64,000 bases of DNA from Actinomycetes bacterium (lineage in GTDB: Bacteria; Actinomycetota; Thermoleophilia; BMS3ABIN01): NCBI GenBank assembly GCA_021791195.1, contig JAJYXB010000008.1, positions 136,921 through 200,920 on the forward strand, given 5' to 3'. Under the pieces are notes generated by a model. The model was not told the DNA's origin and searched no databases. It was given only the letters and a program-made list of their open reading frames with translations. The position numbers and the translations under genes were made by a program. Below, in pieces: positions 28,901 through 45,191 of this stretch (its first letter is position 1; the number at the start of each line of letters is the position of its first letter).

Positions 28901-28903
28901 TTA

Positions 28904-30148
28904 TCAAATTCCTCCCTCCTGGTCTTCGTCGTGCTCGTGCCGCTGGCCTAACTCATAAGCATCCGCCCGTTGCACCTGGTTGCCGCCTGAGTTTTTCGCC
29001 TTGTACATGGCCGTATCCGCACGGGTCACTAACTCATCAACCATTTCACCCACGCCCAGCTCGGCCATGCCGATGCTCAGGCTTGTATCCGGGAAGGAAA
29101 AGTCCTCGAAGGTCTTACGGATGCGCTCCGCCACCACCAGCGCATCTTCCTGCCCGCTGTAAGGCAGGATGACTGCGAACTCGTCGCCGCCATAACGATA
29201 GCCGGTGTCGACGTCCTGACGGATGCTGGCCGTGATCGCCTGGGCGACGCCGCGCAGGGCTTCATCGCCCCTGAGATGTCCGTACCGGTCGTTGTAATCC
29301 TTGAGATTGTCCAGATCGACCACCAGCAGCGCCACCTGGTGCTGCTGCCGCTGTGCCCGCGCCATCTCCTCTTTGAGCTTACGGTAGAAATGGCGGCGGT
29401 TGTAAAGATGTGTGAGGCTGTCGGTCATCGACAGCTCTTCCATCTTTTTTGAGTGCGCATAAGATTTCTCATACAGCCAGGCGTTCTCGATCGCCACGCC
29501 GATCTCGCTGCCGATCGTCACCAGGAGTTTCAGCTCCTGGTCGCCGAACCGGCCTTTTTCCCTGCTGAGGACGCAAAGCACGCCGCGTACACGCCCTTTC
29601 GACTCCAGCGGGATACCGGCGAACGAGTTGAACTCCGGATGCCGGGACAGCAACTCGCTGTGTTCGCTGCCGGCGGCGCTGACATCCTCCACCAGCAGCG
29701 GCTCTCCTTTAAAAGCGACAACTCCCGGGCATTTGTTGCCGACGGGGCTGACTGCCATCTCTGCGATCATGTCCTCGGGCAGGCCGCGGTGGACCATCAG
29801 GTTGAGTTCGTTCTTTTTCTCGTCGACTAGGAAGACGCTGCCCACGTCCAGCTGCAGCAGCTCCAGCACTTTCTCAAGCGATTCGCGCAGGATCACATCC
29901 AGATTGAGCGAACGGCTGACCGAGGCGGCAATCCGGTTGACCGCCTCCAGTTCGCGTGTGCGCTCACGCACCTTCTGCTCCAGCTGCTCGGAATATTCCC
30001 GTAGCTGCAGTTCCAGCGCCGCGATCCGCTCACGCGCAGCAGCGAGCTCCTCCGAGGCCTGTCGCAGCTGCTCCTGAAGCGCCTCGGGAACAGTTGAACC
30101 GGCAGTATTATCGGGATCGGTGTTTGACGACTGGGAATTAATAGGCAT
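28904..30148 (-). CDS. GAF-GGDEF diguanylate cyclase
   Basis: About 414 residues. A coiled coil (EELAAARERIAALELQLREY) is followed by a GAF domain (about residues 85-240) and a GGDEF domain. The active-site signature YRYGGDEFAVILP is intact and DSLTHLYNRRHF marks the domain start, so cyclic di-GMP synthesis is expected. The RxxD product-inhibition site just upstream of the signature is not conserved (RQDV). There is no membrane segment, so it is a cytoplasmic sensor. I chose the ATG at 30148; an ATG at 30214 is also open but neither has a strong ribosome site. It is first in an operon with the two Weimberg enzymes, an odd pairing that hints at cyclic di-GMP signalling tied to carbon source. 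Confidence 0.85.
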   Translation of the reverse strand: MPINSQSSNTDPDNTAGSTVPEALQEQLRQASEELAAARERIAALELQLREYSEQLEQKVRERTRELEAVNRIAASVSRSLNLDVILRESLEKVLELLQLDVGSVFLVDEKKNELNLMVHRGLPEDMIAEMAVSPVGNKCPGVVAFKGEPLLVEDVSAAGSEHSELLSRHPEFNSFAGIPLESKGRVRGVLCVLSREKGRFGDQELKLLVTIGSEIGVAIENAWLYEKSYAHSKKMEELSMTDSLTHLYNRRHFYRKLKEEMARAQRQQHQVALLVVDLDNLKDYNDRYGHLRGDEALRGVAQAITASIRQDVDTGYRYGGDEFAVILPYSGQEDALVVAERIRKTFEDFSFPDTSLSIGMAELGVGEMVDELVTRADTAMYKAKNSGGNQVQRADAYELGQRHEHDEDQEGGI

Positions 30149-30227
30149 AGTCCAGAAATTCTGATTGGAGCCTGGCGGCCTCAAAGGAACAGAAGCGACA
30201 TATGATAATATCATCCGGCGACCGCAA

Positions 30228-30256
30228 TTGCACTTGTTGCTGCAAACCGCTAAAAT
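30228..30256 (+). promoter_or_regulatory. Promoter of tRNA-Phe
   Basis: TTGCAC (30228-30233) and TAAAAT (30251-30256) with an ideal 17-base spacer, ending 49 bases before the tRNA. It lies in the divergent gap to the GGDEF operon. Confidence 0.7.
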
Positions 30257-30305
30257 GCGCCTGCGCGAAGCTTGGCCGCAAGAGCCCGGCCATTTTTCCG
30301 TCCCC

Positions 30306-30381
30306 GGCGAGGTAGCTCAGTTGGTAGAGCGCAGGACTGAAAATCCTGGCGTCCCCGGTTCAATTCCGGGCCTCGCCACCA
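30306..30381 (+). tRNA. tRNA-Phe (GAA)
   Basis: A complete cloverleaf. The acceptor arms GGCGAGG and CCTCGCC pair perfectly. The D arm contains AGCTCAGTTGGTAGAGC, and the anticodon stem CAGGA/TCCTG carries the loop CTGAAAA with anticodon GAA. The T arm has CCCCGGTTCAATTCCGGG. The 3' CCA is encoded (30379-30381). Confidence 0.97.
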
Positions 30382-30451
30382 TCTAAGCCCTGCAAATAGT
30401 GGGATTCCTTCTCCCGCAAATTCAGCATTCCGGTTTTGACAGCCACCGGCC

Positions 30452-30721
30452 CTAAAGATCCTCTTTGAAGGATTGCCTCGCCTCGCCAATGAAGACAAGG
30501 AGCTGGCTTTCACTCACTCGAACGACGGCAACTCCCTGGCGTTCCGCCTCTGCAGGCAGGTGTGTCTGAAACTGGCCGGTTGGAACAAAGAGCGTGGCCG
30601 GCAGTTCTTTCTTATGTGCCCAGCCCGCTTTAAGCAGTCGCCGCGCTTCTAGCTGTGAGGGCTCCGCTTCGGCAGCCGGGATCAGACAGTTGCTCAAGAT
30701 GAAGCAACTTGCTGCATCCAT
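30452..30721 (-). CDS. Hypothetical short protein or gene fragment
   Basis: A frame of 89 codons with protein-like content (LEARRLLKAGWAHKKELPA, then a beta pattern GVAVVRVSESQLLVFIG). It begins at an ATG at 30721 without a visible ribosome site, directly beside a 14-bp inverted repeat. Base composition is lower in GC than neighbouring genes. It could be the C-terminal fragment of a longer lost gene. No family recognised. Confidence 0.4.
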   Translation of the reverse strand: MDAASCFILSNCLIPAAEAEPSQLEARRLLKAGWAHKKELPATLFVPTGQFQTHLPAEAERQGVAVVRVSESQLLVFIGEARQSFKEDL

Positions 30722-30731
30722 GAGACAGACG

Positions 30732-30780
30732 CAGTTGAACGATCCATTCCGCTCAGTCGGGATCGGGGATCGTTCAACTG
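30732..30780. repeat. Perfect 14-bp inverted repeat
   Basis: CAGTTGAACGATCC (30732-30745) and its exact reverse complement GGATCGTTCAACTG (30767-30780) are separated by 21 bases. There is no T tract, so it is not a typical terminator. It lies just upstream of the short gene on the minus strand and may be an operator or the scar of a mobile element. The remaining 30781-31058 is low-GC DNA in which I see only a 12-codon frame and no convincing gene. Confidence 0.75.
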
Positions 30781-31058
30781 GAACGCAATCCAGGCTACGT
30801 TTACGTTAAACTGATCTGGATGTAGCACAAACGCTCCTTGTATAAAACTTCACGTGTTCCAACCCCTACGCCACCCACTCCCCGATCGCAAATCTGGTTG
30901 CGAGAAAAACGAGCAGCAAAGGATGTGCCATGAAAAAAGCTACCACAGACCAGCAAGTTAAACCATAGGCAGGAAGATGTGCTAACCGGGGTGCTCAGGA
31001 AAGGAGCGGTGAAGCTGTTGGCCAAAGCAATCGAAACCAGGGGAGTGCATCGCCATAC

Positions 31059-32459
31059 TCAGTGCCTGAAGCTGTGTCCCGACTTTTTCGGCCTGTGCTC
31101 CGGATGTTTGTCAAACCATTTCATCTGCCGCTCGAAGTCATCGAGCAACATGTCGGCCAGGTCGCGGTTGAACCCTTCCTTGACGACGATGCGCAGGACG
31201 GCGATATGTTCACAGTTTCTGGGAAAGGTGTAGGCCGGTACCTGCCAGCCGCGACCGCGAAGCCGCGTCGAAATATCGAAAACCGTATAATTCCTGGTCT
31301 TTTCAGCTGCTTCTGTCATCCTGAAAGCAAACACGGGAATGTCGCCGCCGTCGGTGATCAGCTCGATCTCCTCATATGCCGCCAGCCGCCGGGAAAGATA
31401 TAGCGCCACGTCCTGACTCGCCTTATGGATGCGCCGGTATCCGTCCCTTCCCAGTCTCAGGAAGTTATAATACTGCGCCACCACCTGGCTGCCGGGACGC
31501 GAGAAATTGAGGGAGAACGTGGGCATCTCACCGCCAAGGTAGTTCACTTTAAATACCAGTTCCTGGGGGAGCGCATCCTCGTGACGCCAGACGATCCAGC
31601 CGACGCCGGGATAGACCAGGCCGTATTTATGCCCTGAAGCGTTGATCGATTGAACCCGGGGCACCCGAAAGTCCCATTCCAGTTGCGGCTGCAGGAAAGG
31701 GGCGACGAAGCCGCCGCTGGCGGCGTCCACATGGATCGGGATGTCCAGACCCTTCTCTTCATGCAGTTTGTCAAGCGCGGTGCTTAATTCCTTGACCGGT
31801 TCGTAGCTGCCATCGTATGTGCTGCCCATGATGGCCACGACGGCGATGGTGTTCTCGTCACACATTCCGGCTGCCTCCTGTGAGCCCAGGTGGTAGCGGC
31901 CATCCTCCATCGGGACGTACCGCGGCTCGACATCCCAGTAGACGCAGAATTTCTCCCAGCAGACCTGCACATTGATTCCCATCACCATGTTTGGCCTGTC
32001 GGCAGCCTTCCCCTGCGCCTCACGCCGCTTGCGCCAGTTCTTCAGCAGTGCCATGCCGCCCAGCATGGCTGCTTCGCTGGAGCCGATAGTGGAGGTTCCT
32101 ACCGCCACTTCATCTTCCGGTGAGTTCCAAAGCCGGGCGATCATGTTGACGCAACGCGCTTCTATCTCCGCGGTTTGGGGGTATTCATCCTTGTCAGCCA
32201 GGTTCTTGCTTAACGACTCCCGCATCAGGCGGTCGGCTTCCGGCTCCATCCAGGTGCCGACAAATGTGGCCAGGTTCAGCCTGGGATTTCCATCCAGCAT
32301 CAACTCATCGTGGATCAGGAAATATGCCGTCTCCGGCAGCATCTCGTCCCCGGGCAGCTCATATTTGGGAATACCCTTGCCCATTGCCCGGCGCGCGAAG
32401 GCAGGCGCGAGCATCTCGCTCCCCGGTCCCAGCTCACTGATTTTTTTCTTTTTGTGCAT
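31059..32459 (-). CDS. gadB: Glutamate decarboxylase
   Basis: A 466-residue PLP-dependent group II decarboxylase that converts glutamate to GABA and CO2 while consuming a proton. The lysine that binds PLP lies in SINASGHKYGLVYPG. The substrate and cofactor regions TSTIGSSEAAMLGG and HVDAASGGFVAPF are intact. The length and the C-terminal regulatory tail (ending GHSFRH) match bacterial GadA/GadB, whose tail closes the site at neutral pH. No glutamate/GABA antiporter gene is in the window. A ClC chloride channel gene lies 1.4 kb away; in E. coli, ClC antiporters support glutamate-dependent acid resistance. ATG at 32459 starts the gene. Confidence 0.95.
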   Translation of the reverse strand: MHKKKKISELGPGSEMLAPAFARRAMGKGIPKYELPGDEMLPETAYFLIHDELMLDGNPRLNLATFVGTWMEPEADRLMRESLSKNLADKDEYPQTAEIEARCVNMIARLWNSPEDEVAVGTSTIGSSEAAMLGGMALLKNWRKRREAQGKAADRPNMVMGINVQVCWEKFCVYWDVEPRYVPMEDGRYHLGSQEAAGMCDENTIAVVAIMGSTYDGSYEPVKELSTALDKLHEEKGLDIPIHVDAASGGFVAPFLQPQLEWDFRVPRVQSINASGHKYGLVYPGVGWIVWRHEDALPQELVFKVNYLGGEMPTFSLNFSRPGSQVVAQYYNFLRLGRDGYRRIHKASQDVALYLSRRLAAYEEIELITDGGDIPVFAFRMTEAAEKTRNYTVFDISTRLRGRGWQVPAYTFPRNCEHIAVLRIVVKEGFNRDLADMLLDDFERQMKWFDKHPEHRPKKSGHSFRH

Positions 32460-32869
32460 CGTTCGTATCCTTTACCCGTTTATGTTGACATTATTTCGTC
32501 ATCCAGCTGCCGATACAAAAAGACTGAATATCTTCCGGCGGCAGATCCTTTTGTGCCTGATGCTGGCTCAAAACCATACCAGCAGCGTGGATGAAGATAA
32601 ATGGAGCGGCAGGTCATGGAGCGGAAAAATTTCCCATTGCGACCGGTGGTCTGGAAGTTAAGGCGGGCCGCTTTTCAACTGGCTCGCGCTTCCCTGGGGG
32701 TTTTAATAAAAGGATTTTTGGCCGCGTGAGTGTATAATAAAGCGTCAAACCACATAACGGTTCGTCCAACTGCGTCATGAAACCGGCGAATCGGAGTATT
32801 TAATGGGCCAGGGAGCCCCCCAATTCCCGGAATTCTTCCTGGCAAAACCGGCAAGAGAAAGGATTACGG
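32460..32869 (+). promoter_or_regulatory. Divergent promoter region and cytochrome leader
   Basis: A 410-base gap between gadB and the cytochrome gene. A clear -10 TATAAT at 32733-32738, preceded by TG, would start a transcript near 32745. I see no good -35 (an AAGGAT lies at the right distance). The resulting leader of about 125 bases contains CCGG-CGAA-TCGG and GGGCC-rich segments that could fold. I could not match it to a known riboswitch. The gadB promoter on the other strand is not obvious. Confidence 0.45.
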
Positions 32870-33778
32870 ATGAAATTGAGGGCAAGGATAATCATACCAG
32901 CCGGCATGGCGCTGGCATTTGTGCTGGCGCTTTGCGCGATCGCGCTGGCCAGCAACGGTAATCCCTCCGCTACGGTTCCCAGCAGCGGCAACACCACTCC
33001 TGGAACCGCGGCCAGCATGTTCGGCAGCGCCTCCCGCGGACTGACGGTATTCAATGCCAGCTGCGCCTCCTGTCACGGGCCTGCCGGGCAGCCGACACTC
33101 GCCTATCCGGGGCTTGCAAGCGTACAGAACACCAACACCAATTATTCCATCGATCCGGAGCTGTACGATCCCAACCCGGCGCGGTTCGCGCTTAACATCG
33201 ATCCTTTTGTCCAGCATGGGTCCAATCCCGGCGGTGTGCCGTCGCCGATGCCTTCCTTCGGTGACAGCGGCACCCTGACCCAGTCCCAGATCGCCGACGC
33301 CGAAGCTTATGTCATGAGCCTAAGCAACGTCAACTGGCCCACGCTGGCACTGAACGGCACCACTTTGAACGGCAGCGGCTTCGTGCCCCAGACGACGATC
33401 CAGCTCTATAACAACAGCACCGCGTTTGGCTCTACGATCAACGCGGATGCCAGCGGCAAGCTGTCGACCTCATTCTCCGCGCCGGCCGGGCAGTCGGGGA
33501 CCATCACCGCCAAATACGCCGTGCTTGATGAATACGGCATCTATCCCAACGGTGACCCAAGCCAGGGCAACCTGGCCATGGACGGCACCAGGACTGCCAC
33601 CCTGGCGGTGGCCACTGTCGGATATTCCGCTGCGGCAGCAGCCACTGCGCCCGCGACCACAACAACCGTGACCACGCTGCCCAACACCGGCAGCGATGTT
33701 CTGGTACTCATCCTGGCAAGCGCCATGCTGACCATTATGGGCAGCGCGGTACTGCTGCGCAGGCGCGGTTCCAGCTAA
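32870..33778 (+). CDS. Cell-wall-anchored c-type cytochrome (LPXTG)
   Basis: A 302-residue exported protein with a signal peptide (residues 1-27, AGMALAFVLALCAIALAS). A mono-haem cytochrome c domain follows (about 50-155), with CASCHGPAG as the haem site and PMPSFGD as the likely distal Met. A C-terminal beta domain (about 160-250) and a Thr/Ala linker precede a sorting signal LPNTG, a hydrophobic helix and the tail RRRGSS. Sortase would link it to peptidoglycan, so it would carry electrons in the wall. A single haem plus LPXTG anchor is unusual. ATG at 32870 follows AGAGAAAGGATTACGG. A strong terminator follows at 33794. Confidence 0.88.
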   Translation: MKLRARIIIPAGMALAFVLALCAIALASNGNPSATVPSSGNTTPGTAASMFGSASRGLTVFNASCASCHGPAGQPTLAYPGLASVQNTNTNYSIDPELYDPNPARFALNIDPFVQHGSNPGGVPSPMPSFGDSGTLTQSQIADAEAYVMSLSNVNWPTLALNGTTLNGSGFVPQTTIQLYNNSTAFGSTINADASGKLSTSFSAPAGQSGTITAKYAVLDEYGIYPNGDPSQGNLAMDGTRTATLAVATVGYSAAAAATAPATTTTVTTLPNTGSDVLVLILASAMLTIMGSAVLLRRRGSS

Positions 33779-33793
33779 ATCCGTCGCATTCAT

Positions 33794-33835
33794 CGGGCCC
33801 GCCGCTGAGTTGACAGCGGCGGGCCCGTTTTTTTT
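33794..33835 (+). terminator. Strong rho-independent terminator
   Basis: A perfect 14-bp stem (CGGGCCCGCCGCTG with CAGCGGCGGGCCCG) around a 6-base loop followed by eight T. It ends the cytochrome transcript. A degenerate copy of the right arm with GGCGGGCCCGTTTTC occurs about 45 bases further on. Confidence 0.95.
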
Positions 33836-33882
33836 CACCCGCGTCGGCTGGACCCAGGCGGCGCTTGACGGCGGGCCCGTTT

Positions 33883-35289
33883 TCATCCCTCGCGGCCGCC
33901 GGCGCGGCAGAGGAACCGCCAGACCCGGTAATAAAGGAATGAGACAAGGCTCTTTTCCCGCGGCGCAAAGGTCGGCCGGGCGTCGACTATCTCACACCCT
34001 TGCTCCACCTCAAGCGACGGCGATTTGGTCATCGCCAGCACCTGCGACGGATAGACGCTGCGGTGGCCCGAGATCAGGAAGCTGGTGACGGCGGCGATAG
34101 CGGCGTAGGGCGCGATCGCCGGACCGAACAGCTCCACTGACAGGATGCTGGCCGCAATCGGCGTATTGGCGGCGCCGGCCACCAGCGCCACCATGCCGAT
34201 GGCGGCAAAAGTGGCGGGGTCAAGCCCCAGCAATGAGGCGAAAGCGCTGCCGGCGGTGGCGCCGACGAAAAATATCGGCGTGATGATGCCGCCGCTGCCT
34301 TCCATCCCCAGGGTGATGCTGGTAAAGACAATCTTAAGCAGAAATGCGTACCAGACGAATTGCAGCCCCGTCAGCGCCCCCTCGATGCTGTCAAGTCCCA
34401 GGCCAAGATATTGCCTGGAAAAGACGAAGGTCAACACGATAAGCATGCAGCCGCCCACTACTCCCCTGAGCGGTGTCCAGAATTTCATCCTGTGAGCCAG
34501 CTTTTCGCCCAGCTTCAGTCCTTCGATCATGATCACCGAGACAATACCGAAGAAGATGCCGGCCAGGATGACCTTGGAGAAAAACGAACTGCTGAAGCTG
34601 GGGACGAAATTGAAATGATGGTAGAAATATGACACTCCCAGGTGGGAAGCCACCTCGAAACTGATGATGCCGGCGATAAAAGAAGGCAGCAGCACCTCGT
34701 ACATCATGCCGCCGATGAACAGGACCTCGATGCCGAAGATGGAACCCGCGATCGGCGTGCCAAAGACAGAGGCAAAGCCGGCGCTGATGCCGCAGATGAC
34801 CAGTTTTTTGCGGTCGGCATCGCTGAAGCGGAACAGGCCGGCGAAGGCCGATGCGAGACCGGCCCCAATCTGGGCGCTGGGTCCCTCCTTACCGACCGAC
34901 CCGCCGACAAAAAGCGTAACGACCGTTGCCGCCAGCTTCACCGGCACCACCGGCAGGGCGATCTTGCCGGAGCGCTTGTGCACCGCCTCGATGACCTTCT
35001 CTGTGCCGTGGCCTTTGGCATCCGGCGCCAGGTACCTCACCAGCACCGAACTGATGAAGAAGCCCGCCGGCAGCAGCAGAAAATAGTAAGAATACCGGCC
35101 GCTGAAGCCGGTAGCCCACTGCAGCAGCTTGAGGAAGCCGCCGGAAGACAGCCCGACGATGGCGCCGGTGATCGTGGCCAGCACCGTCCATTTGAGGACG
35201 CTGATGACCATGATGCCTTCCTCGGCGAGCGCCCGCTTGATGCGGTCCTCGATCTGTTTCCTGATAAAGGTTGTTATGAATCCGGTCAT
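33883..35289 (-). CDS. ClC-family chloride channel/antiporter
   Basis: A 468-residue membrane protein with the ClC fold. GKEGPSAQIGAGLAS contains the gating Glu of GxEGP, and GMEGSGGIITPIF corresponds to the GxFxP region; the initial GSGxP motif is not canonical. FGTPIAGSIFGIEVLF and ANTPIAASILSVELFG are the paired inverted-repeat helices. Retention of the gating Glu fits either a H+/Cl- exchanger or a channel. No CBS domains follow. The upstream leader was checked for a fluoride riboswitch because some ClC proteins export fluoride; none was found. Confidence 0.92.
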   Translation of the reverse strand: MTGFITTFIRKQIEDRIKRALAEEGIMVISVLKWTVLATITGAIVGLSSGGFLKLLQWATGFSGRYSYYFLLLPAGFFISSVLVRYLAPDAKGHGTEKVIEAVHKRSGKIALPVVPVKLAATVVTLFVGGSVGKEGPSAQIGAGLASAFAGLFRFSDADRKKLVICGISAGFASVFGTPIAGSIFGIEVLFIGGMMYEVLLPSFIAGIISFEVASHLGVSYFYHHFNFVPSFSSSFFSKVILAGIFFGIVSVIMIEGLKLGEKLAHRMKFWTPLRGVVGGCMLIVLTFVFSRQYLGLGLDSIEGALTGLQFVWYAFLLKIVFTSITLGMEGSGGIITPIFFVGATAGSAFASLLGLDPATFAAIGMVALVAGAANTPIAASILSVELFGPAIAPYAAIAAVTSFLISGHRSVYPSQVLAMTKSPSLEVEQGCEIVDARPTFAPREKSLVSFLYYRVWRFLCRAGGREG

Positions 35290-35530: not shown

Positions 35531-36385
35531 TCAGAAAGAGCGGGCGACCAGCACGGCGCAGCTGGCGTGACCAACGACGCGCTCGGTGACGCTGCCCATC
35601 AGCAGCCGGTCCAGCTTGCCGCGGCCATGGCGGCCGACGACGATCAGGTCCGCATCGTTGTCTTCCGCTGCCTTGATGATCTCCACGTAAGGTTTGCCGG
35701 TAGCGGTCAGGGTCTGGATCTCCATGCCCGCCTCCGTGGCGGCCTGCTCTGCCTTGACCAGCGCCTCGGACGCTTCTGCGGCCCGGCCCTGGGACGGAGC
35801 CACCGAGAGCACCTGCAGCCGGGCACCGCATTTTGTGGCCATCTTGATGGCTTCGGCCACCGCCGTCTCGCCGTCGCGCGAACCGTCCGTGGCGGCCATG
35901 ATGTGTTTGCACCCGGTCACGGCGCCCCGGGGAACCACCAGCACGTCGCCGGGCATGTTGCCGATCACCTTGGCGGTGACGCTGCCCATGGCCACACGCT
36001 CGAAGCGGGTATGGCCGCGGCGGCCCATGATGATGAGCTCGGAACCTCTATTGCGGGCTTCCTCGACGATGATGTTGAACGGATCGCCAGCTTTGACGAC
36101 AACATTGCATTCGATGCCCTTCTCCTCAGCCCGCGCCTTCACGCCTTTGAGGTACTTCTTCGCCTCCTGCTCCTGCTCTTCGACCGCGGTGGCCATCGGC
36201 CCCACGACGTAGGGCGCCAGGGAGGCAAACCGCTGAAATGTCTCAACTGCGAGCACCACGTCCAGCTGGCTGGAGCACCGGCCTGCCAGGCTGATAGCTT
36301 CCCGCACGGCGCCTTCGCCGGAATCGGAGCCGTCGGTCGCCAGCAGGATTTTTTTCAGTTCAGTCAAGGGGCATTGCTCGGCCAT
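35531..36385 (-). CDS. Tandem UspA universal stress protein
   Basis: A 284-residue protein of two universal stress domains. Both halves keep the nucleotide motif G-x2-G-x9-G-S: GRRGHTRFERVAMGS in the first and GRHGRGKLDRLLMGS in the second, so ATP binding is expected in each. DGSDSGEGAV and DGSRDGETAV begin the two domains. Such proteins aid survival in stress, often under low oxygen. ATG at 36385. It follows the efflux pump gene by about 46 bases on the same strand and may share its transcript. Confidence 0.92.
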   Translation of the reverse strand: MAEQCPLTELKKILLATDGSDSGEGAVREAISLAGRCSSQLDVVLAVETFQRFASLAPYVVGPMATAVEEQEQEAKKYLKGVKARAEEKGIECNVVVKAGDPFNIIVEEARNRGSELIIMGRRGHTRFERVAMGSVTAKVIGNMPGDVLVVPRGAVTGCKHIMAATDGSRDGETAVAEAIKMATKCGARLQVLSVAPSQGRAAEASEALVKAEQAATEAGMEIQTLTATGKPYVEIIKAAEDNDADLIVVGRHGRGKLDRLLMGSVTERVVGHASCAVLVARSF

Positions 36386-36431: not shown

Positions 36432-37937
36432 TCAGATTCCTTCGAACTCCTTGACTGCCTCGGAGTCCAGCGCTTCGCCCTCTTTCTTGGAGACCGAAAG
36501 CACAGTGGCGATCACGGTCAGCGCCAACATGATGATCATTGCTATCTCCAGGCCGTGCAGAAAAGCGCCGTACCTGTCGGCCGTCGGAATATTATTGCCG
36601 CTAAAGATGTGTTTGGGTTTTGGATAGCCTTTTCCGTTAAGATAAATGCCCTCCCAGATAGCCAATACCAGGCTGGAGACAGCGACGCCAAAAATCGACC
36701 CCAGCGACCGGGTCATGTTCAGAATCCCTCCGGCCACGCTGAGTTTGTCCCTGGGAGCTGCCCCCATGATAGCGCTATTATTGGGCGGCGTGAACATGCC
36801 CATGCCCACGCCGATGACGAGCAGCTCGAGTATCAGCAGCCACACGGGCGTCGTGGAGCTCAGGAAAATCATTGCCAGGCAGCCAATCGAGGCCGCCACC
36901 ATGCCGGCCGTGGTCATTATCCTCGAGCCGTACTTGTCAGAAATGTTGCCCGAGAACGGGGCCACAATCGCCATGGAAAGCGGTACCGGCGTCAGCAACA
37001 GACCTGTCATGCCGGCGGCATATCCCAGTACGTTCTCCATGTAGAACGGCATCAGGAATAAAATCCCGAACAGCACGTAGTACGAGAGCATGCCGGTCAC
37101 GTTCCCCAGCATGAACAGTCCGTTTTTAAACATGTTGAAATCAATCAGCGGGAACCTGACTCTAAGCTCGGTGAAGGCAAAGATTGCCAGGAACACAACC
37201 GCGATCGCCAGGTAAGCGATGATCGTGGGTGTAAATCCGTCGGTTCCCATCCCGTTTATCCCCAGCACCAGCGAACCCAGACCGATAACAAAGGCCAGGG
37301 TGCCAAAGTAATCGATCTTCTCCTTCTCGGCGGCCTTCTCGCTCTTCGGCAGGATCAGGAGCGCCGCCGTCACGCCAACCAGACCAATCGGCAGGTTCAC
37401 GTAGAAGATAGCGCGCCAGCCGATGGCGGCGATCAGGCCCCCGCCAACGAGGGGACCGATGGACATGGAGATTGCCTGGACGGCGCCCTGGATGCCGATT
37501 GCCTTTCCTCTCTCACTTGAAGGGAAAGCCGAAACGATAATCGCCACCGAATTCGCCTGCAAGAGGCCGGCGCCAACAGCCTGCAGGACGCGGGAGCCAA
37601 TCAGGAAGTATGCGCTCGGCGCTATGCCGCATAAAAACGAGCCTACGGTAAAGACTATAAATCCGAAGGTATACAATTTTGTCCGGCCCAGCATATCCGC
37701 CAGCCGGCCGAAGAACGGCAGGAAGATCGTCAGCGTGATCATGTATGCCATCGCCACCCACGCGATCATGGAGGTGGAGACATTGAAATCATCTTTCATG
37801 GTCGGCATGGCGACGTTGACGATGCTGACGTCCAGCGCCGACATGGTGGCGCCCATAAGAACGGTAACCAGGATGAACCATTTCCAGTTAGGCTTGCTGG
37901 AAAAGAATGGATGCGGGAACCCTGAAATTTTACTCAC
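36432..37937 (-). CDS. MFS drug efflux transporter (DHA2/EmrB-QacA type)
   Basis: A 501-residue transporter with 14 predicted helices, the layout of the drug:H+ antiporter-2 family. SALDVSIVNVAMPTM in helix 1 is the DHA2 motif D1. GRLADMLGRTKLY is the loop 2-3 motif A, and ISMSIGPLVGGGLIAAIGWRAIF matches motif C in helix 5. It likely expels hydrophobic drugs. The start is a GTG at 37937 with AAGGAG eight bases upstream. A near-perfect palindrome at 38015-38043 between promoter and start suggests control by a TetR- or MarR-type repressor, though no regulator gene is adjacent. Confidence 0.9.
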   Translation of the reverse strand: MSKISGFPHPFFSSKPNWKWFILVTVLMGATMSALDVSIVNVAMPTMKDDFNVSTSMIAWVAMAYMITLTIFLPFFGRLADMLGRTKLYTFGFIVFTVGSFLCGIAPSAYFLIGSRVLQAVGAGLLQANSVAIIVSAFPSSERGKAIGIQGAVQAISMSIGPLVGGGLIAAIGWRAIFYVNLPIGLVGVTAALLILPKSEKAAEKEKIDYFGTLAFVIGLGSLVLGINGMGTDGFTPTIIAYLAIAVVFLAIFAFTELRVRFPLIDFNMFKNGLFMLGNVTGMLSYYVLFGILFLMPFYMENVLGYAAGMTGLLLTPVPLSMAIVAPFSGNISDKYGSRIMTTAGMVAASIGCLAMIFLSSTTPVWLLILELLVIGVGMGMFTPPNNSAIMGAAPRDKLSVAGGILNMTRSLGSIFGVAVSSLVLAIWEGIYLNGKGYPKPKHIFSGNNIPTADRYGAFLHGLEIAMIIMLALTVIATVLSVSKKEGEALDSEAVKEFEGI

Positions 37938-38043: not shown

Positions 38044-38189
38044 AGTCTTGTATAAGTATACTCATTATTGTTCAATTATTAAACACTTTATTTACATTTT
38101 TGTCACGCTTTCGTTTCATAATGTTACATTATTTCGCATGGCAGGTATAAGTAATGCCTGCTGCAAGGACGATTGGCATCGCCCGGATG

Positions 38190-38195
38190 TATAAT
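38190..38195 (+). promoter_or_regulatory. -10 box next to the kinase start
   Basis: An exact TATAAT preceded by TG, ten bases before the ATG at 38205. If used, transcription would begin within about 3 bases of the start codon, giving a nearly leaderless message, which would fit the lack of a ribosome site there. No good -35 box is present at 17 bases. Confidence 0.35.
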
Positions 38196-38204
38196 CATGG
38201 CAGA

Positions 38205-39794
38205 ATGTCCCTCCGAAAAAAGATAATATTCAGCTTCTTCATCAGCGCCCTGATCATTGGCATTCTCGCCACCTTTGAATATATCAATTTCATCCAGGTA
38301 AAGAACCAGATGGGATTCCTCGAGGTGGCCGATTCCGCCCGGGACCGGTCGCTCAAGATTCTGCGGCATGAGAAGAACTTCTTTCTTTTCCCCGATCAGG
38401 CCGCCCGGGAATCAGCCGCGACTCTCGATTACCTCAAACAGCTCGACAGCCTGAACGGCGACATCGAGGCCGAGGACCCCGCCGCCGCCGCCAACCTCAC
38501 CAACCTCGTAGCCACCTACCGGACGCAGTTCAGCAACATCCAGAGCTCGCTGACACAGATCGCGCAGGGAAACGACAGCCTGAAAACCTCCTTCCCGACG
38601 GCGGCCAGCCTCGAGCCGGTGATCCAGGCCGGTTCGCGTGACAATCCTTCGCTGGTGGCCAATTACCTGCAGAGCTATCTCTCGCTGCCGCCGACAAACC
38701 CGCAGATCGTGGCGCTCCGGCAGCTGGACGCGCAGATCACCCAGCTGCGGAGCCAGAGTGATAACATCGTCGCCGCCGCCAACGACCTGGACAAGAATAC
38801 CCGCAACAACGCCAACTCCGTGATCCGGCAATCGCAGATCGAGATCCTGGTGGTGTTCCCCCTGTTCCTGATGATCGGCCTGGGCGCCCTGCTCTATGTC
38901 AGCTCGGATGTGGTCAAAAAACTGAGGGCGCTGACCGGCGCCGTGGAGCGGATCAGCCGGATGTTCGGCCCCCGCTCGCCGCGGCCCGCAGTGGATGAAG
39001 GACATGTCCACAAGGATGAAGTCGACATCCTCGTTGACAAGTTCAACCGCATGAACCAGCTGCGCACCGACTGGGAGCGCAAGATCCAGGAGAAGAACCA
39101 GGAGGCGCTGCTCCAGGCGAAAAAGCTGGCAGCCATCGGCACGCTGGCCTCCGGCGTTGCCCATGAGCTCAACAACCCGCTCAACAACATCAGCCTGTCG
39201 GCGCAGGTGCTGAAGAAAAAAATCAGTTCCGACGAGCCGCCGGCGGTAGCCCGCATCGTCAATGACATAGTCGGGCAGACCGAACGGGTCAGGGATATCG
39301 TCAGCAATCTGCTAGAGTTTGCCAGGGAGCGCGAGCTGCAGCGGCAGGAGGTGGAGGTAAACAGCCTCATCAGAAGCGCTTACCACCTGGCGGGCAAGGC
39401 CGCGGACACCTCCGCCATCCGGTTCGAGCTCGATTCCCAGGAAGCGGTCAATGTCATCGAGGCCGACCGTCCCCAGCTGGAGCGGGTTTTTGTCAACCTG
39501 TTCGCCAACGCCATCGCCGCGATCGAGGGCGAGGGAAGGATAATCGTCCGCATCCGGCCGAAGAAAGGGAACCTGGAGATCCTGGTGTCCGACACCGGCA
39601 GGGGGATGTCTGCCGCGGACCGGGAAAAGGTCTTTGATCCCTTCTTCACCAGGAAGGACAAGGGAACCGGGTTGGGACTTGCCATTGTAATGAATACAAT
39701 CCAGAAACACGGAGGCCAGATATCCGTGATCAGCGAAGAAGGGATCGGCACAATTTTCGAGATCATTCTGCCGGTGAAAGGCAAAGAGGCATGA
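38205..39794 (+). CDS. Membrane sensor histidine kinase (NtrB-like output)
   Basis: About 529 residues. Two membrane helices (IIFSFFISALIIGILATFEY near residue 6 and IEILVVFPLFLMIGLGALLY near 210) enclose a ~180-residue helical extracytoplasmic sensor. A HAMP-like segment follows, then the kinase: H box SGVAHELNNPLNNI, N box NLFANAIAAIE, G1 DTGRGM, F box FDPFFTRKDKGTGLGLAIV. The HELNNPL form is typical of kinases that pair with NtrC-type regulators, and that gene overlaps its stop by four bases. The ATG at 38205 (MSLRKK) is chosen because the basic segment then directly precedes the first helix; an ATG at 38154 is also open. The sensed signal is unknown. Confidence 0.9.
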   Translation: MSLRKKIIFSFFISALIIGILATFEYINFIQVKNQMGFLEVADSARDRSLKILRHEKNFFLFPDQAARESAATLDYLKQLDSLNGDIEAEDPAAAANLTNLVATYRTQFSNIQSSLTQIAQGNDSLKTSFPTAASLEPVIQAGSRDNPSLVANYLQSYLSLPPTNPQIVALRQLDAQITQLRSQSDNIVAAANDLDKNTRNNANSVIRQSQIEILVVFPLFLMIGLGALLYVSSDVVKKLRALTGAVERISRMFGPRSPRPAVDEGHVHKDEVDILVDKFNRMNQLRTDWERKIQEKNQEALLQAKKLAAIGTLASGVAHELNNPLNNISLSAQVLKKKISSDEPPAVARIVNDIVGQTERVRDIVSNLLEFARERELQRQEVEVNSLIRSAYHLAGKAADTSAIRFELDSQEAVNVIEADRPQLERVFVNLFANAIAAIEGEGRIIVRIRPKKGNLEILVSDTGRGMSAADREKVFDPFFTRKDKGTGLGLAIVMNTIQKHGGQISVISEEGIGTIFEIILPVKGKEA

Positions 39795-41128
39795 CTTTCA
39801 GGGTTCTGATAGCGGAGGATGAGGAAATCACCCGCAATCATCTCGCCGATGTGCTGCGCGACGAAGGCTTCGACGTAGTCAGCACAGGAAACGGTCTTGA
39901 TGCGCTAAATGAGATCAGGTCAAGTGACTTTGATATCCTCATCGCCGACATCAAGATGCCCAGGATGGATGGGCTGGAACTGCTCTCGCAGGTGAAGAAG
40001 GTCTCGCCCGAGACCGAAGTGCTGATCGTCACCGGCTTCGGCAGCATCAACTCGGCGGTCGATGCCATCAAGAAAGGCGCTTTCGATTACCTGCCCAAGC
40101 CATTCGACCTGGATGAGCTGATCCTGAAGGTGCGCAAGGTCCAGGAACAGAATGAGCTCAGGCAGGAGAACGTCGCCCTGCGCACCTCGCTGAACATGGA
40201 GAAGAAGATCGACGTGATCGCCGAGAGCAAAGGCATGAAAAAAGTGCTCGAGGTGATCGACGGCATCAGGGAATCAGACTGCAACGTCCTTCTGACCGGC
40301 GAGAGCGGCGTGGGCAAGAATCTGCTGGCCAAGGTCATTCACTATTCCAGCCCCCGCAGCGAGCGGCCGTTCCTGTCGCTCAACTGCGCCACCTTCTCCG
40401 AGGAACTGCTGGCCAGTGAGCTGTTCGGTCATGAGAAAGGCGCTTTCACCGGCGCTACGACGCAGAAGCCGGGCCTGATGAAGATCGCCGATCACGGTAC
40501 GCTCTTTTTTGATGAGATCACCGAGATGGCGCCAAATCTGCAGGCGAAGCTGCTGAAGGCGATCGAGGAACGTGAATTCTACCGCGTCGGCGGCACCAAG
40601 CCGGTGCGCGTGGATGCGCGCTTTATCGCCGCCACCAACCAGCGCATCGACCAGGCGATCGCGCAGGGAACGTTCCGCAAGGATCTCTATTACCGCCTCA
40701 ATGTCATGGAGATATATGTGCCGCCCCTGCGCGAGCGCAAGAGTGACATCACGCCGCTGAGCCGCTTCTTTTTGCGCAAGCATTCGCGCGAGTACGGCAA
40801 GAAGATCAAGAAGTTCACCAAGGATGCGCTTGACGTGCTCAGGCGCTATAGCTACCCTGGCAACGTGCGCGAGCTGGAGAATATCATCGAGCGCGCCGTC
40901 ATCCTGGAAAAGGGTCCCTACATCACCGCTGAATCGCTGCCTCAGTCGCTCCTGATGTTCCAGATCGAAACGACGCTGGAGCCGGACAAGGTGAAATCCC
41001 TCGCCGAGATCAACAAGGAATACGTGCATTCGGTCCTGGAGATGTTCGGCGGCAACAAGTCCGAAGCCTCGCGGGTGCTGGGCGTTTCGCGCACGAGCCT
41101 CTGGCGGATGCTCAAAGAAGAGGAATAG
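39791..41128 (+). CDS. Sigma-54-dependent NtrC-family response regulator
   Basis: A 445-residue three-domain activator. The receiver has the phospho-acceptor Asp near residue 53 (LIADIKMPRMDG). The AAA+ domain has Walker A GESGVGKN, the sigma-54 contact loop GAFTGA, Walker B-like TLFFDEI and the R finger region. The C-terminal Fis-type helix-turn-helix is NKSEASRVLGVSRTSLWRML. It should be phosphorylated by the upstream kinase and remodel sigma-54 holoenzyme. A perfect -24/-12 promoter lies 151 bases after its stop, upstream of the next operon. Sigma-54 systems are rare in Actinomycetota-like bacteria, and no rpoN gene is in the window. Confidence 0.95.
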   Translation: MTFRVLIAEDEEITRNHLADVLRDEGFDVVSTGNGLDALNEIRSSDFDILIADIKMPRMDGLELLSQVKKVSPETEVLIVTGFGSINSAVDAIKKGAFDYLPKPFDLDELILKVRKVQEQNELRQENVALRTSLNMEKKIDVIAESKGMKKVLEVIDGIRESDCNVLLTGESGVGKNLLAKVIHYSSPRSERPFLSLNCATFSEELLASELFGHEKGAFTGATTQKPGLMKIADHGTLFFDEITEMAPNLQAKLLKAIEEREFYRVGGTKPVRVDARFIAATNQRIDQAIAQGTFRKDLYYRLNVMEIYVPPLRERKSDITPLSRFFLRKHSREYGKKIKKFTKDALDVLRRYSYPGNVRELENIIERAVILEKGPYITAESLPQSLLMFQIETTLEPDKVKSLAEINKEYVHSVLEMFGGNKSEASRVLGVSRTSLWRMLKEEE

Positions 41129-41279: not shown

Positions 41280-41295
41280 TGGCACGGATCTTGCT
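41280..41295 (+). promoter_or_regulatory. Sigma-54 promoter (-24/-12)
   Basis: TGGCACGGATCTTGCT matches the sigma-54 consensus TGGCACG-N4-TTGCW at every fixed position, with GG at 41281-41282 and GC at 41293-41294. Transcription would begin near 41305, with AGGAGG just ahead of the ATG at 41322. It faces the UspA-like/DUF202 operon and lies directly downstream of the sigma-54 activator gene. Confidence 0.93.
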
Positions 41296-41321
41296 CCTAT
41301 TATTAAAAAAGGAGGAAGGTC

Positions 41322-41846
41322 ATGTCAACACAGGAACTGATATATGTAGCGTACAGGGACGAACATCTCGATGATGAGCGGTCCGACCACGGCATCTCCT
41401 ATGCCATCTACCTCTCCAAGGTGCTCAGCGAGACTTTGCGTGTGCTGCTGCTGAGTCCGCGCGGTTCCAGTAGCCGGTTCAACGACGTTGTTTCCTCCGT
41501 CGCTTCGGTCTCACCGTTCCCCCACACGCAGGCGGACGCCGCCGCCGCCGAATGGGAGCACAGCAATTCCGAGGCGGCGGCGCTGGCAAAAGACTTCATG
41601 CTGAAGAAGTGCAGCAGCCAGGGCATCGCCGCCGATGTCCACATCGGCCTGGAGGCCAACGCCGCGGAGATCATGCGCTTCCTGCGGCGGATGAAGGTGC
41701 ACCTCGTGCTGCTCAGCCCCAGAGTCACGGAGACCAGGCATATCCACAAGCGGCTGGTGAAGTCTTCTCCGCGGCCGGTCGTGACCATGGCCCGCGGCGC
41801 CGCCTATCCGGCGCTCGGCGCACAGGCGGATGCCGGCATTGTTTGA
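41322..41846 (+). CDS. UspA-like protein, first gene of the sigma-54 operon
   Basis: A 174-residue protein with an alternating alpha/beta pattern like universal stress proteins. ELIYVAYRDEHLDDERSDHG at the N-terminus resembles the first strand and helix, and VHLVLLSPRVTETRHIHKRLV ends with SSPRPVVTMARG, like the last strand. The ATP motif G-x2-G-x9-G-S/T is not recognisable, so nucleotide binding is doubtful. ATG at 41322 follows AAAGGAGGAAGGTC. It overlaps the next gene by 17 bases, so it is translated with the membrane protein and may be its soluble partner. Confidence 0.75.
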   Translation: MSTQELIYVAYRDEHLDDERSDHGISYAIYLSKVLSETLRVLLLSPRGSSSRFNDVVSSVASVSPFPHTQADAAAAEWEHSNSEAAALAKDFMLKKCSSQGIAADVHIGLEANAAEIMRFLRRMKVHLVLLSPRVTETRHIHKRLVKSSPRPVVTMARGAAYPALGAQADAGIV

Positions 41847-43455
41847 CCGGCTGCTCGACAATCACATCGTCGGCAGGGACGAGTTGGAGACGGCCCGCGC
41901 AGAGGCCGAAGCCAGCGGCCACCCGCTGGAACAGGTGCTGCTGGAGAAAGGCGTCCCCAAGCATGAGATCCTGAACGGCCTTTCTGAGCACTTCGGCGTG
42001 CCCTGGGTCGAGTACGACGAAGACCTGATGGTTTCGGCCGCGATCATGAAGCAAATCGACCCCGAGCAGCTCAAGCGAAGCCTATGGCTGCCCATCGCCA
42101 TCAGCGACAGCCACGCCGAGGTCATCGCCAGCCGGCCGGACGATCCGAAGGTGCTTGCCCAGATCAAAAGCATGCTCGGGGTCGGCGCAGTCGACTTCCG
42201 CGTCGCCCTTCCAGGCGATGTGCTGCGCATCATCGAGAACAACCAGGACCTGAATCCGGGCTTTCCGCCGGAAGCGGGCAGAACACCGCTGGCCAAGACC
42301 CGGACGTATCTGGCCGGAACGCGTTCCACGCTGGCCATCCAGCGCACATCGATGGCCAAGGCCAGGACGGCGTTGGCCTTCCTCCGCACCGGGATTTCCT
42401 CGATCACGATCGGAGTGGTCCTGATCACGCTGTTCGGCGGCGGCTTTTTTCTGCCGCTGGAAATGCTGCTGCTGGCAATCGGCGTGTATGCGGTGATGGA
42501 CGGCCTCATCTGGTATGTCCCGGCCAGAGGCCAGGCGCTGAAGAACCAGAGTTACGCCGAACCGGCGAATGACGGCGGCGGCATGAGCGTACTTTCCACC
42601 CGCAACGAGGTCGCCGGCCCCGAATTCGTCCGTTCCGGAACCCTTACCGGAGCCGTTGACCAGAGGCGGGGCTGGCGCCGGCTTTCACCGGTGATGCGCC
42701 GCCGCTTCCTCGCCAGCGACCGCACCGACCTGGCGGAAGGGCGCACGGTCAACGCCTCTTTGCGCACCACCATGGCGCAGGCCCGGACCGGCCTGGCCTT
42801 TGCCCGCACCGGCGTGGCCTTCGGCGGCCTGGGACTGGGCCTGCTGAAGAAGTTTCCCAGCGTCAGCTGGTCCTATTTTGACTTTTTCCTCATCCTTGCC
42901 GGAACGTTCATGGTGCTCGAAGGCTTCTACTGGTACCTGCCAGGATACCGCGCCGGCAGGGACGGTCTGCGCAGCTTCATCGCCGCCCTTCATGAAGACA
43001 CGATCTGGGACGAGGTTTTTCCACCGCTGCACCGGCTGCGGGAACAAGCCCCGCCGGTCAGCGCGGCGCAGGCTCCCGGCATCTGGGGCACCACGGGTCT
43101 GGCGCTGGAACGGACGGTTCTGGCGGAGCGGCGCAACCTGATGTCACGGCTGCGGACGGTGATGGCCTACTCGCGCACGGGGCTGGCCTTCATCCGCACC
43201 GGCATGAGCATCGCCGGCGTAGGCGCGACTTTGTTCGTGCTGCTGCTGCCGAACAGCCTGGGCTGGAAGGTGACGCCGGTCATCCTGATCGCCACCGGGC
43301 TCTTTCTGGCCGGGGACGGCCTGCGCTGGTCCCTGGGCACAGAGAAGGTCTGGCGGGAATATCCTTTCTGCCGGGGCGAGTTCGAGATCCAGCTGCCGGA
43401 TTACGGCAAGCCGGCGCGGAAGTGGGGCAGGGTGGTGTTTGATGATGAACTCTAG
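41830..43455 (+). CDS. MshEN-like domain plus three DUF202-like modules
   Basis: A 541-residue membrane protein with a novel layout. Residues 1-137 look like the GspE N-terminal/MshEN domain (HPLEQVLLEKGVPKHEILNGL, then ALPGDVLRIIENNQ). Three modules follow, at about 154-232, 294-372 and 424-502. Each has five consecutive heptads of the pattern [LM]AxxR[TN]x ending in LAFxRTG, then two membrane helices and a closing (D/E)G(L/F)xW. LAFxRTG plus two helices resembles DUF202 (YidH/Vtc1 family). The heptads would put an Arg on one helix face every two turns. MshEN domains in other proteins can bind cyclic di-GMP; whether this one does is unclear. Gene overlaps on both sides show co-translation. 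Confidence 0.8.
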   Translation: MPALFDRLLDNHIVGRDELETARAEAEASGHPLEQVLLEKGVPKHEILNGLSEHFGVPWVEYDEDLMVSAAIMKQIDPEQLKRSLWLPIAISDSHAEVIASRPDDPKVLAQIKSMLGVGAVDFRVALPGDVLRIIENNQDLNPGFPPEAGRTPLAKTRTYLAGTRSTLAIQRTSMAKARTALAFLRTGISSITIGVVLITLFGGGFFLPLEMLLLAIGVYAVMDGLIWYVPARGQALKNQSYAEPANDGGGMSVLSTRNEVAGPEFVRSGTLTGAVDQRRGWRRLSPVMRRRFLASDRTDLAEGRTVNASLRTTMAQARTGLAFARTGVAFGGLGLGLLKKFPSVSWSYFDFFLILAGTFMVLEGFYWYLPGYRAGRDGLRSFIAALHEDTIWDEVFPPLHRLREQAPPVSAAQAPGIWGTTGLALERTVLAERRNLMSRLRTVMAYSRTGLAFIRTGMSIAGVGATLFVLLLPNSLGWKVTPVILIATGLFLAGDGLRWSLGTEKVWREYPFCRGEFEIQLPDYGKPARKWGRVVFDDEL

Positions 43456-44689
43456 GCAGATGATCACTTATCGCCGCCTGGTCAAAGACGGTCATATCAG
43501 CAAGGAGCGGCTGGAGACGGCCTGCGCCTCCGCCAGCGAACGCGATGCGGAGATCGAGACCGTGCTCATGGACGAATATGGCGTGCCAAAAAAGGCACTG
43601 CTGGACGCGCTGGCCGAGGAATTCGGCTTCCCCGCCATCGAGTTCGACGAGCGCCTGCCAGTGCCGCCCGAGCTGCTCGAAGGGCTGGAGCCCGACAGAC
43701 TCCGGCGGGAGCCGATGTTTCCGCTCATCCTCGAGAACGGGAAAGTGATCGCGGCGCTTAACGATCCCGGTTCGCCGGTGGCGCGCGAAGAGATCGACCG
43801 GTTTGTCAACGGCCCTTATACGCTCAGGGTCAGCCTGGTGATGGAGATCCTCTGGTACATGCAGGATTATCTCAACGACCATCCCGGACGCATCATCGGC
43901 ACCGAGCGTACCGGCCTCGCCTTCTGGCGCAACACGATGGCAGCCTGGCGGACGCGGATGGCCTGTTACCGCACCGAGATGGCGCGCATGCGGACCTGGC
44001 AGGCGCTGATGCGCTGGGGCCTGGGCCTGATGACCCTGGCGACGGCGTTCATCATCCTCGACTGGCGGACGGTAGATTCCCAGATCCTGATCTGGCTGAC
44101 GGTGGGCGCCGGTATGGGGCTGGCCGGGTTCGGCACCTGGAAGTATTCCCACATGCGGCGGTTCATGATGCGCATGCCCCGCCCGCAGACGCTGGCCGAG
44201 GTAACCTCGGCCACGACCGTCTTCCTGGAACGATACCATGTGGATGACGCGCCCCAGCCGCGGACCAAGAACACGATGCTGTCACGCCTCAGCGATCTGC
44301 TGCCCACTTACAGCACCATTCTCAGGCCGGTGCCGGCCAGCCGCGAGCGCACCCACCTGGCACGGGAACGTAACATTCTGGCCGCACAGCGAACCATCGC
44401 CGGCTGCTACCGGACGATGTATGCCCGTGCCCGTACCGGCCTGGGGTTCATCCGCACCGGAATCACCTTTTTGAGCATCGGCTTGGGCCTGGTCAAGATT
44501 TACGAGCTTCGTACTGCCGGGCTCATGGGCATACTGCTCGCGGTTGCCGGCGCGCTGATGGCGATCGACGGGGTCATCTGGTACTACCCGGCGCGCAAGG
44601 AGGAACCGGATCTCGGCAGGCTGCTCAGCGAGCCGGCTCCGGAAAGTTACGCCGACACGGCGCCGGAACAGCTGCTCGATTCGGCTTGA
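43442..44689 (+). CDS. MshEN-like domain plus two DUF202-like modules
   Basis: A paralogue of the preceding protein, about 415 residues. Residues 1-145 form a second GspE-N/MshEN-like domain (GHISKERLETACASASERD, EFGFPAIEFDERLPVP). Modules lie at about 153-240 and 300-385. The first has six heptads from GTERTG to QALMRWG, and the second six from SRERTH to LGFIRTG. A pair of membrane helices follows each, and the second module ends in IDGVIWYYPARKEE. An in-frame TTG sits at 43439, but ATG at 43442 or 43445 with GGGTGG upstream is likelier. It overlaps the upstream gene's stop. The two proteins probably form one membrane complex. Confidence 0.8.
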   Translation: MMNSRQMITYRRLVKDGHISKERLETACASASERDAEIETVLMDEYGVPKKALLDALAEEFGFPAIEFDERLPVPPELLEGLEPDRLRREPMFPLILENGKVIAALNDPGSPVAREEIDRFVNGPYTLRVSLVMEILWYMQDYLNDHPGRIIGTERTGLAFWRNTMAAWRTRMACYRTEMARMRTWQALMRWGLGLMTLATAFIILDWRTVDSQILIWLTVGAGMGLAGFGTWKYSHMRRFMMRMPRPQTLAEVTSATTVFLERYHVDDAPQPRTKNTMLSRLSDLLPTYSTILRPVPASRERTHLARERNILAAQRTIAGCYRTMYARARTGLGFIRTGITFLSIGLGLVKIYELRTAGLMGILLAVAGALMAIDGVIWYYPARKEEPDLGRLLSEPAPESYADTAPEQLLDSA

Positions 44690-44822
44690 TGCTCGATTCG
44701 GTTCAGGCGTTTTCGCTATAATCTTCCTGGCGATTCAGGGCCGCCAAATCCGCAGGGCCGCAAGTTCTTCCTGTCCGCTGGCGCGGGCAGGCAACCTGAC
44801 ACGTGAACAGACGGGAAGTCGC

Positions 44823-45191
44823 ATGAGCTACAGGGTAATGATCATCGATGATGAGAAGATCGCCGCTGATATGACCAGGGTTTCGCTCGAGGACGAGGGC
44901 TACGAAGTGGAGACATTCGCCGACGGCGCGTCCGCCCTGGCAAGGCTGAAGGAAACTCCCTTCGACGTCGTCATCACCGACCTGAAGATGAAAGGGCTGG
45001 ACGGGTTCGACGTCCTCAACAAGATCAGGGAAACCGGCTCGGGCGCCAAGGTGATCATGGTCACCGCTTTTGCCAACCTCGACATCGCCATCGAGGCGAT
45101 CAAGGGTGACGCATTCGATTTCTTCACCAAGCCGGTGAAGCTGAAAGAGTTGAAGGCTTCGGTCAGGAAAGCGGTGCAGGGAGAAGGCTAG
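44823..45191 (+). CDS. Stand-alone receiver domain protein (CheY-like)
   Basis: A 122-residue receiver with no output domain. Acidic pocket MIIDDEK, phospho-acceptor Asp in VVITDLKMKGLDG, switch Thr in IMVTAF and Lys in FFTKPVKLKEL are all present. It is closest in style to receivers of NtrC-type regulators, including the long SAKVIMVTA stretch. It lies 133 bases after the second DUF202-like gene, so it may belong to the same sigma-54 operon and compete for, or relay, phosphate from the kinase at 38205. ATG at 44823 follows GACGGGAAGTCGC. It converges with the adenine deaminase gene by 4 bases. Confidence 0.9.
   Translation: MSYRVMIIDDEKIAADMTRVSLEDEGYEVETFADGASALARLKETPFDVVITDLKMKGLDGFDVLNKIRETGSGAKVIMVTAFANLDIAIEAIKGDAFDFFTKPVKLKELKASVRKAVQGEG

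Follow-up and report, generated by a model that had tools for sequence, protein, structure and literature searches.

The VTC complex of yeast, a eukaryotic polyphosphate polymerase and channel, is a pentamer of three Vtc1 chains, Vtc3 and Vtc4 whose channel is formed by five TM1 helices, and the upper wall of this channel is lined by basic residues, namely K24 and R31 of Vtc1, K694, K698, R705 and R709 of Vtc3 and K622 and R629 of Vtc4, among which the pairs K24/R31, K622/R629 and K698/R705 stand seven residues apart (PMC9911596). This channel is the sole mechanistic anchor that we found for DUF202, which in bacteria is a domain of unassigned function. Canonical bacterial DUF202 proteins, of the YidH type, carry an ERT..LAW.RT core followed by two hydrophobic helices; each is a single short module with two or three arginines in heptad register and no MshEN domain, and we know of no kinase or phosphotransferase partners for them.

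The locus considered here unites DUF202 modules in another manner. It lies on contig C19 of a host genome of 2.15 Mb that is 97.5% complete, within the window, as we call the whole 64,000-nucleotide stretch of DNA analysed. Four genes follow one another on the forward strand: UspL (41322-41846), encoding a distant Usp-like protein of 174 aa; M3 (41830-43455), encoding an MshEN domain (about residues 1-140) and three DUF202 modules; M2 (43439-44689), encoding MshEN and two DUF202 modules; and REC (44823-45191), a single-domain receiver according to Pfam. UspL and M3 overlap by 17 bases, M3 and M2 by 17 bases from a TTG start or 14 from the next ATG, and REC starts 133 bases beyond M2; the coordinates, gene order, overlaps of 14-17 bases and gap given by the first-pass annotation all hold.

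Directly upstream and on the same strand are the two genes of a two-component pair. The histidine kinase HK (38154-39794) has HisKA and HATPase_c domains in Pfam and an AtoS/ZraS-like core in NCBIfam, and its start may lie 51 bases downstream, to judge by residue 18, which aligns with the start of its relatives. The NtrC-type regulator (39791-41128) combines a receiver, a sigma-54 activation domain (Sigma54_activat, 4.6e-66) that contains the GAFTGA motif and a Fis-type HTH (HTH_8, 4.1e-9), so that Pfam bears out the kinase and regulator expected at this place. Homologues of HK precede NtrC and UspL in Thermoleophilia and Nitrospirota, and the NtrC homologues found 5' of UspL are 61-63% identical in Nitrospirota and 69-73% in sister genera. 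AtoSC and ZraSR-type pairs likewise set a kinase and a sigma-54 activator beside a -24/-12 promoter, but the operon under study is another kind of target. On the reverse strand lie a divergent neighbour, the tandem Usp protein Usp2 (35531-36385; Pfam), and a DHA2-family MFS efflux transporter (36432-37937; NCBIfam).

The proposed sigma-54 promoter, TGGCACGGATCTTGC (41280-41294, +), is an exact match to the -24/-12 consensus, 42 bases 5' of UspL. A lone perfect site in the window is weak evidence by itself; sites with one mismatch at most number 8 there against 6 expected. We accept the promoter because most of 28 UspL homologues, drawn from Thermoleophilia (Actinomycetota) and Nitrospirota, are preceded by the same site at a similar distance: the best site stands at -41 to -57 in about 24 of them and at -32 in one more, usually in the form TGGCA[CT]-N5-[CT]TGCT, and most sites agree at 9-11 of 11 positions, which shuffled sequences rarely reach. 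Such conservation, far above chance, marks it as a real promoter and supports an NtrC/sigma-54-controlled, stress-type operon that is conserved in other genomes. No sigma-54 site was found upstream of M3 where UspL is missing. A second perfect -24/-12 site (30916-30930, -) lies between glutamate-decarboxylase-like and GAF-GGDEF genes with no obvious gene right behind it, and the region 27449-35289, which encodes a PLP decarboxylase (GadB-like), an aldehyde dehydrogenase, a cytochrome c and a CLC channel, is possibly an acid-stress or GABA-type group adjoining the operon.

The union of MshEN with three and two DUF202 modules, read at first from the letters of the sequence, is confirmed by Pfam and profile comparison. 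DUF202 is detected in three stretches of M3 (E 1.6e-13, 51.3 bits, cut-off 23.4) together with MshEN (PF05157; E 2.5e-10, 40.6 bits, cut-off 23.1), and M2 has MshEN at E 1.4e-5 (25.4 bits, the same 23.1 cut-off). The C-terminal module of M2 falls just below the DUF202 (PF02656) cut-off of 23.4 in hmmscan (E 1.2e-4, 22.9 bits), and the M2 DUF202 domain alone exceeds it in the genome search; the N-terminal module was found by hhalign against the canonical DUF202 profile (E 3.7e-7). Among relatives, Pfam finds DUF202 in 59/59 M3 and, at E<=0.001, in 59/61 M2, and MshEN in 46/59 and 61/61, respectively. AlphaFold2 models of M3 (pLDDT 83.5, pTM 0.77) and M2 (pLDDT 80.4, pTM 0.63) contain three and two helices of about 50 residues, each followed by a second hydrophobic helix. 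Foldseek relates the MshEN/GSPII fold of both to 8pdk and 5htl, with a domain-wide TM-score of about 0.6-0.75; with whole chains the MshEN part alone was matched and VTC was not returned, the fold matches of the transmembrane part being unspecific (ABC transporters and designed bundles, E>0.02). Five modules per M3 and M2 together are not a strict rule, since one M2 (L121) has a single DUF202 module. An apparent M2-HK2 fusion (L099) was discarded as a frameshift, the M2 C-terminus reading out of frame. In L039 (G008) and L040 (G004) one in-frame stop, TGA and TAG, falls within the full-query M2 match, probably where a shorter gene begins.

How these proteins relate to VTC can be traced through the canonical DUF202 family. 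A profile of 13 canonical proteins matches Vtc1 in the PDB (E 5.5e-6) and aligns to M3 (E 2.5e-7) as well as to M2, and by way of this profile the sequences indicate a real relationship of M3 and M2 to the VTC channel domain; a direct PDB search with the M3 and M2 profiles gave no Vtc1 or VTC match. Both systems have DUF202-type transmembrane modules and, on the channel-lining helix, basic residues seven apart, the final residues of the M3 and M2 ladders aligning with the VTC pore-lining region. Both would also have five modules per complex, if M3 and M2 pair 1:1. Yet the modules are fused as 3+2 in M3 and M2, whereas VTC uses five chains; each bears 5-6 arginine heptads against about two in VTC; and MshEN heads take the place of SPX and TTM, the latter being the polymerase domain, neither of which Pfam matches in M3, M2 or their relatives. 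A second kinase (HK2), a receiver and a phosphotransferase are partners of the M3-M2 system only. With the YidH-type proteins M3 and M2 share the core motif and the two hydrophobic helices that follow it.

The most conserved trait of M3 and M2 is a ladder of 29 near-invariant arginines at exact seven-residue spacing, 5-6 per module, counted as columns with arginine in >=85% of 120 sequences (59 M3 and 61 M2). The ladders run R151-R186 (6), R291-R326 (6) and R428-R456 (5) in M3 and R157-R192 (6) and R304-R339 (6) in M2, and the only departures among the 120 sequences are a two-position deletion in L100 and one lysine in L093. Arginine pairs at +7 number 14 in M3 against 2.3 expected, and 10 against 1.6 in M2. 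The repeating heptad is R-[TN]-x-[LM]-A-x-x, with arginine at 'a' in about 100%, leucine or methionine at 'd' in 83% and alanine at 'e' in 92%. AlphaFold2 joins each ladder and the first hydrophobic segment into one helix of about 50 residues, and places the ladder part mostly outside the membrane. Canonical DUF202 domains of this phylum have 2-3 in-register heptad residues, in a control that includes some uninformative loci, translated from the wrong strand. The ladder can be lengthened: a 288-aa protein of L136 (3173-4039, +) has a divergent single DUF202-like module after 20 consecutive heptad-spaced arginines, and its gene adjoins one for a nitrite-reductase-like cytochrome, with an NtrC-type regulator encoded about 1.5 kb 5' of it.

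When named genome contigs were scanned, the block turned up at 65 loci, in Thermoleophilia/Actinomycetes MAGs, many Nitrospirota and delta-type bacteria, the latter being Desulfobulbaceae and others including the cable bacteria Candidatus Electronema; a few are labelled Gammaproteobacteria or Proteobacteria. Of the order's 19 genomes, 13 have a relative of M3, one of them (G015) by a weak match only (E 8e-5, residues 8-118). Class-wide, M2 relatives at high score were found in 12 genomes, all of one family, and when 396 genomes of the phylum were searched by alignment, a set in which the rest of the family is sparsely sampled, M2 was confined to the window's genus. The M2 tree consists of three clades, Thermoleophilia (100/99), Nitrospirota (95/89) and delta-type (100/99), and a single gammaproteobacterial row on a long branch sits at its midpoint root; since the tree splits in this way, no donor of a gene transfer can be named. 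Conservation of the gene block elsewhere, on which the earlier proposal depended, is thereby established, and its statement that no described system has this content agrees with our searches, which found no published account under DUF202, MshEN or TauE in the part of the open literature accessible to us. The gene set is real and conserved, and we could find no description of it in that literature.

Outside the window's genus the gene order is M3-M2-HK2-REC followed by a gene for a PPDK-like enzyme. Outside Thermoleophilia, 38 loci extend more than 5.5 kb beyond M3-M2; HK2 and REC each follow in 36 of these, and the PPDK-like gene follows in 34. HK2 itself contains a HAMP domain and, in its N-terminal part, a putative sensor region. 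In sister genera, receivers 63-68% identical to the window REC sit directly after HK2, and in genus g5 (L065) UspL-M3-M2-HK2-REC is still intact. In the window's genus neither HK2 nor the PPDK-like gene is present and UspL is joined straight to M3-M2; REC is kept in the window, L060 and L061 and lost in L062-L064. Comparison of these loci suggests that the genus most likely lost the kinase and the phosphotransferase and that REC is a remnant of a kinase-receiver-phosphotransferase set; the 133-base gap would then most likely mark the place of HK2, which lies between M2 and REC in relatives. The lone receiver noticed earlier is thus present, but it is not the natural single partner of M3-M2, as elsewhere HK2 and the phosphotransferase accompany it.

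The PPDK-like enzyme contains PPDK_N (ATP-grasp) and a PEP-utilizers swivel domain with a conserved catalytic histidine, and these were the only domains found in it, the PEP/pyruvate barrel being absent. It shares both domains with the PEP synthase and rifampicin phosphotransferase superfamily and differs in lacking the barrel and in having a helical N-terminal and a conserved C-terminal domain, both outside any Pfam family. By analogy it probably moves phosphate from ATP via the histidine to an acceptor. Delta-type bacteria often have several such genes in succession beside M3; in L094-L109 and related delta-type loci 3-4 different PPDK-like genes, arrayed in tandem, flank M3-M2 together with kinase and receiver genes.

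The regulatory genes form a block that is separable from M3-M2. In Nitrospirota M3-M2 often follows HK-NtrC-UspL-TauE-TIGR02186-Usp2-Usp, with the Usp2 homologues inside the cluster just 5' of M3, and homologues of the MFS transporter (60-63% identity) come after M2 in several clusters. In sister Thermoleophilia genera the HK-NtrC-UspL block and the M3-M2 block lie apart, and since one genome (G006) has the HK-NtrC-UspL-TauE block and no M3-M2 match, UspL and M3-M2 need not act together. L177-L181, from sister genera, display a stand-alone conserved unit of HK, NtrC, sigma-54 site, UspL, TauE, TIGR02186, Usp2 and Usp, a regulon that is undescribed as far as we searched. The first operon gene had been called UspA-like, which is only partly upheld: the window UspL has no match to Pfam Usp (PF00582), 5 of 22 family members do (best 1.3e-5), and the family profile aligns weakly to Usp (hhalign E 1.4e-4, probability 53%). 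Judged by these similarities, UspL is a distant Usp relative at best.

From this we propose, with a probability of about 0.5, that M3-M2 forms a pseudo-five-fold, arginine-lined conduit or sensor for anions, is controlled by NtrC/sigma-54 and elsewhere is coupled to phosphotransfer; the five-fold assembly, the pore, the anion and a direct coupling to HK2 or the phosphotransferase are what we infer here. Under stress HK and NtrC would switch on the sigma-54 promoter, and UspL, M3 and M2 would be produced. M3, with three modules, and M2, with two, would most likely pair 1:1 into a covalently linked version of a VTC-like five-fold DUF202 channel. Each module would contribute one helix of about 50 residues, its membrane-proximal half serving as the channel-lining TM1 and its N-terminal half bearing the ladder heptads, with arginine at every 'a', leucine/methionine at 'd' and alanine at 'e'. 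Given this pattern, five such helices may make a long arginine-lined cytoplasmic funnel into the membrane, although arginine at the coiled-coil 'a' position could serve protein or membrane contact and not a lumen. The conduit might bind or pass a small or polymeric anion, phosphate-type or other, or report its level. In most bacteria it would be coupled to HK2, the receiver and the ATP-dependent histidine-swivel phosphotransferase; in the window's genus, after the presumed loss of HK2 and the phosphotransferase, the HK-NtrC control of expression would remain. The absence of these two partners there speaks against the conduit.

It is possible, though the odds are against it, that M3-M2 is a transmembrane sensor or scaffold whose ladders bind an anionic ligand, a lipid or a polyanion and signal to HK2 and the receiver. 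The presence of HK2 and a lone receiver after M3-M2 in nearly all loci counted fits such a role, as does the largely extramembrane position of the ladder helices in the models. MshEN domains are mostly protein-docking or regulatory, which also suits a scaffold. On the other hand, HK2 carries its own HAMP and putative sensor region, M3-M2 persists without HK2 in the window's genus, and the homologous VTC domain is a channel (PMC9911596). The MshEN heads might instead place the system under cyclic di-GMP control, in line with the nucleotide link suggested at first, since in fold and sequence they resemble PilF and MshE, both cyclic di-GMP binders, and a GGDEF protein is encoded nearby (28904-30214). 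However, the MshE-type motif (NF053729), which stands for a receptor with two RLG...L...Q motifs, reaches 16.9 and 16.4 bits here, where 38 is the cut-off, and at E<=0.01 it is recognised in 5 of 59 M3. PilF GSPII-A, off-consensus at only a few positions, does not bind (PMC12002112), and sister genera do without the MshEN of M3 and without the helical portion of the one in M2. With the motif test failed we reject this nucleotide link, to which we assign very little likelihood. The heads share the N-terminal fold and sequence of MshE, PilB and PilF GSPII domains; what follows them in M3 and M2 is a membrane module and not a traffic ATPase, and they do not retain the cyclic di-GMP motif. The simplest inference is regulatory docking.

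A further explanation makes M3-M2 a polyphosphate machine, in which the five-fold DUF202 channel exports or stores polyphosphate and the PEP-synthase-like enzyme is a new polymerase replacing PPK1. The sequence relationship with the VTC channel would agree with it, and so would a phosphotransferase that has ATP-grasp and the conserved swivel histidine and lacks the PEP/pyruvate barrel. Replacement also predicts the rarity of PPK1, which we found in 2 of 45 genomes tested (those of L110 and L116), a count over 44 M3-M2 carriers and the genome of L136 that by itself does not indicate a replacement. In L116 PPK1 lies about 7 kb from M3. Neither PPK1 nor PPK2 was found in the window's genome, and PPK2 was found in none of the 19 genomes of the order, which tells against synthesis by these known kinases and renders polyphosphate doubtful as the cargo; as the window's genome also lacks this phosphotransferase, it has no known polyphosphate source. 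We regard this machine as unlikely; of the polyphosphate link suggested earlier, the kinship to the VTC channel domain stands, and the absence of PPK1 and PPK2 here, and of PPK1 from nearly all tested carriers, tells against the rest. The least credible account, which we give almost no weight, is that unrelated genes of an ordinary stress operon came together by chance. Usp, MFS and other stress-type genes are indeed common neighbours, but this gene set is found again in all three deep clades of the M2 tree and has a conserved promoter, which already contradicts such an account.

Across Nitrospirota, delta-type bacteria and Thermoleophilia, according to our analysis, M3-M2 links DUF202 with a kinase, a receiver and an unassigned family of phosphotransferases, and the conserved 3+2 module pair with its near-invariant arginine ladder gives a testable idea of what DUF202 does in bacteria. 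We may even suggest, tentatively and with considerable doubt, a new system, widespread in bacteria, that moves or senses a phosphorylated polyanion through a pseudo-pentameric channel of fused DUF202 modules; this channel would have a cytoplasmic funnel lined with arginine and be served by its own kinase, receiver and a new dikinase-like phosphotransferase. If this were true, the fused DUF202 system would be a bacterial counterpart of VTC, perhaps making polyphosphate without PPK. Should M3-M2 prove to conduct or sense a polyanion, bacterial lineages seemingly without known polyphosphate kinases would have a relative of the polyphosphate channel.
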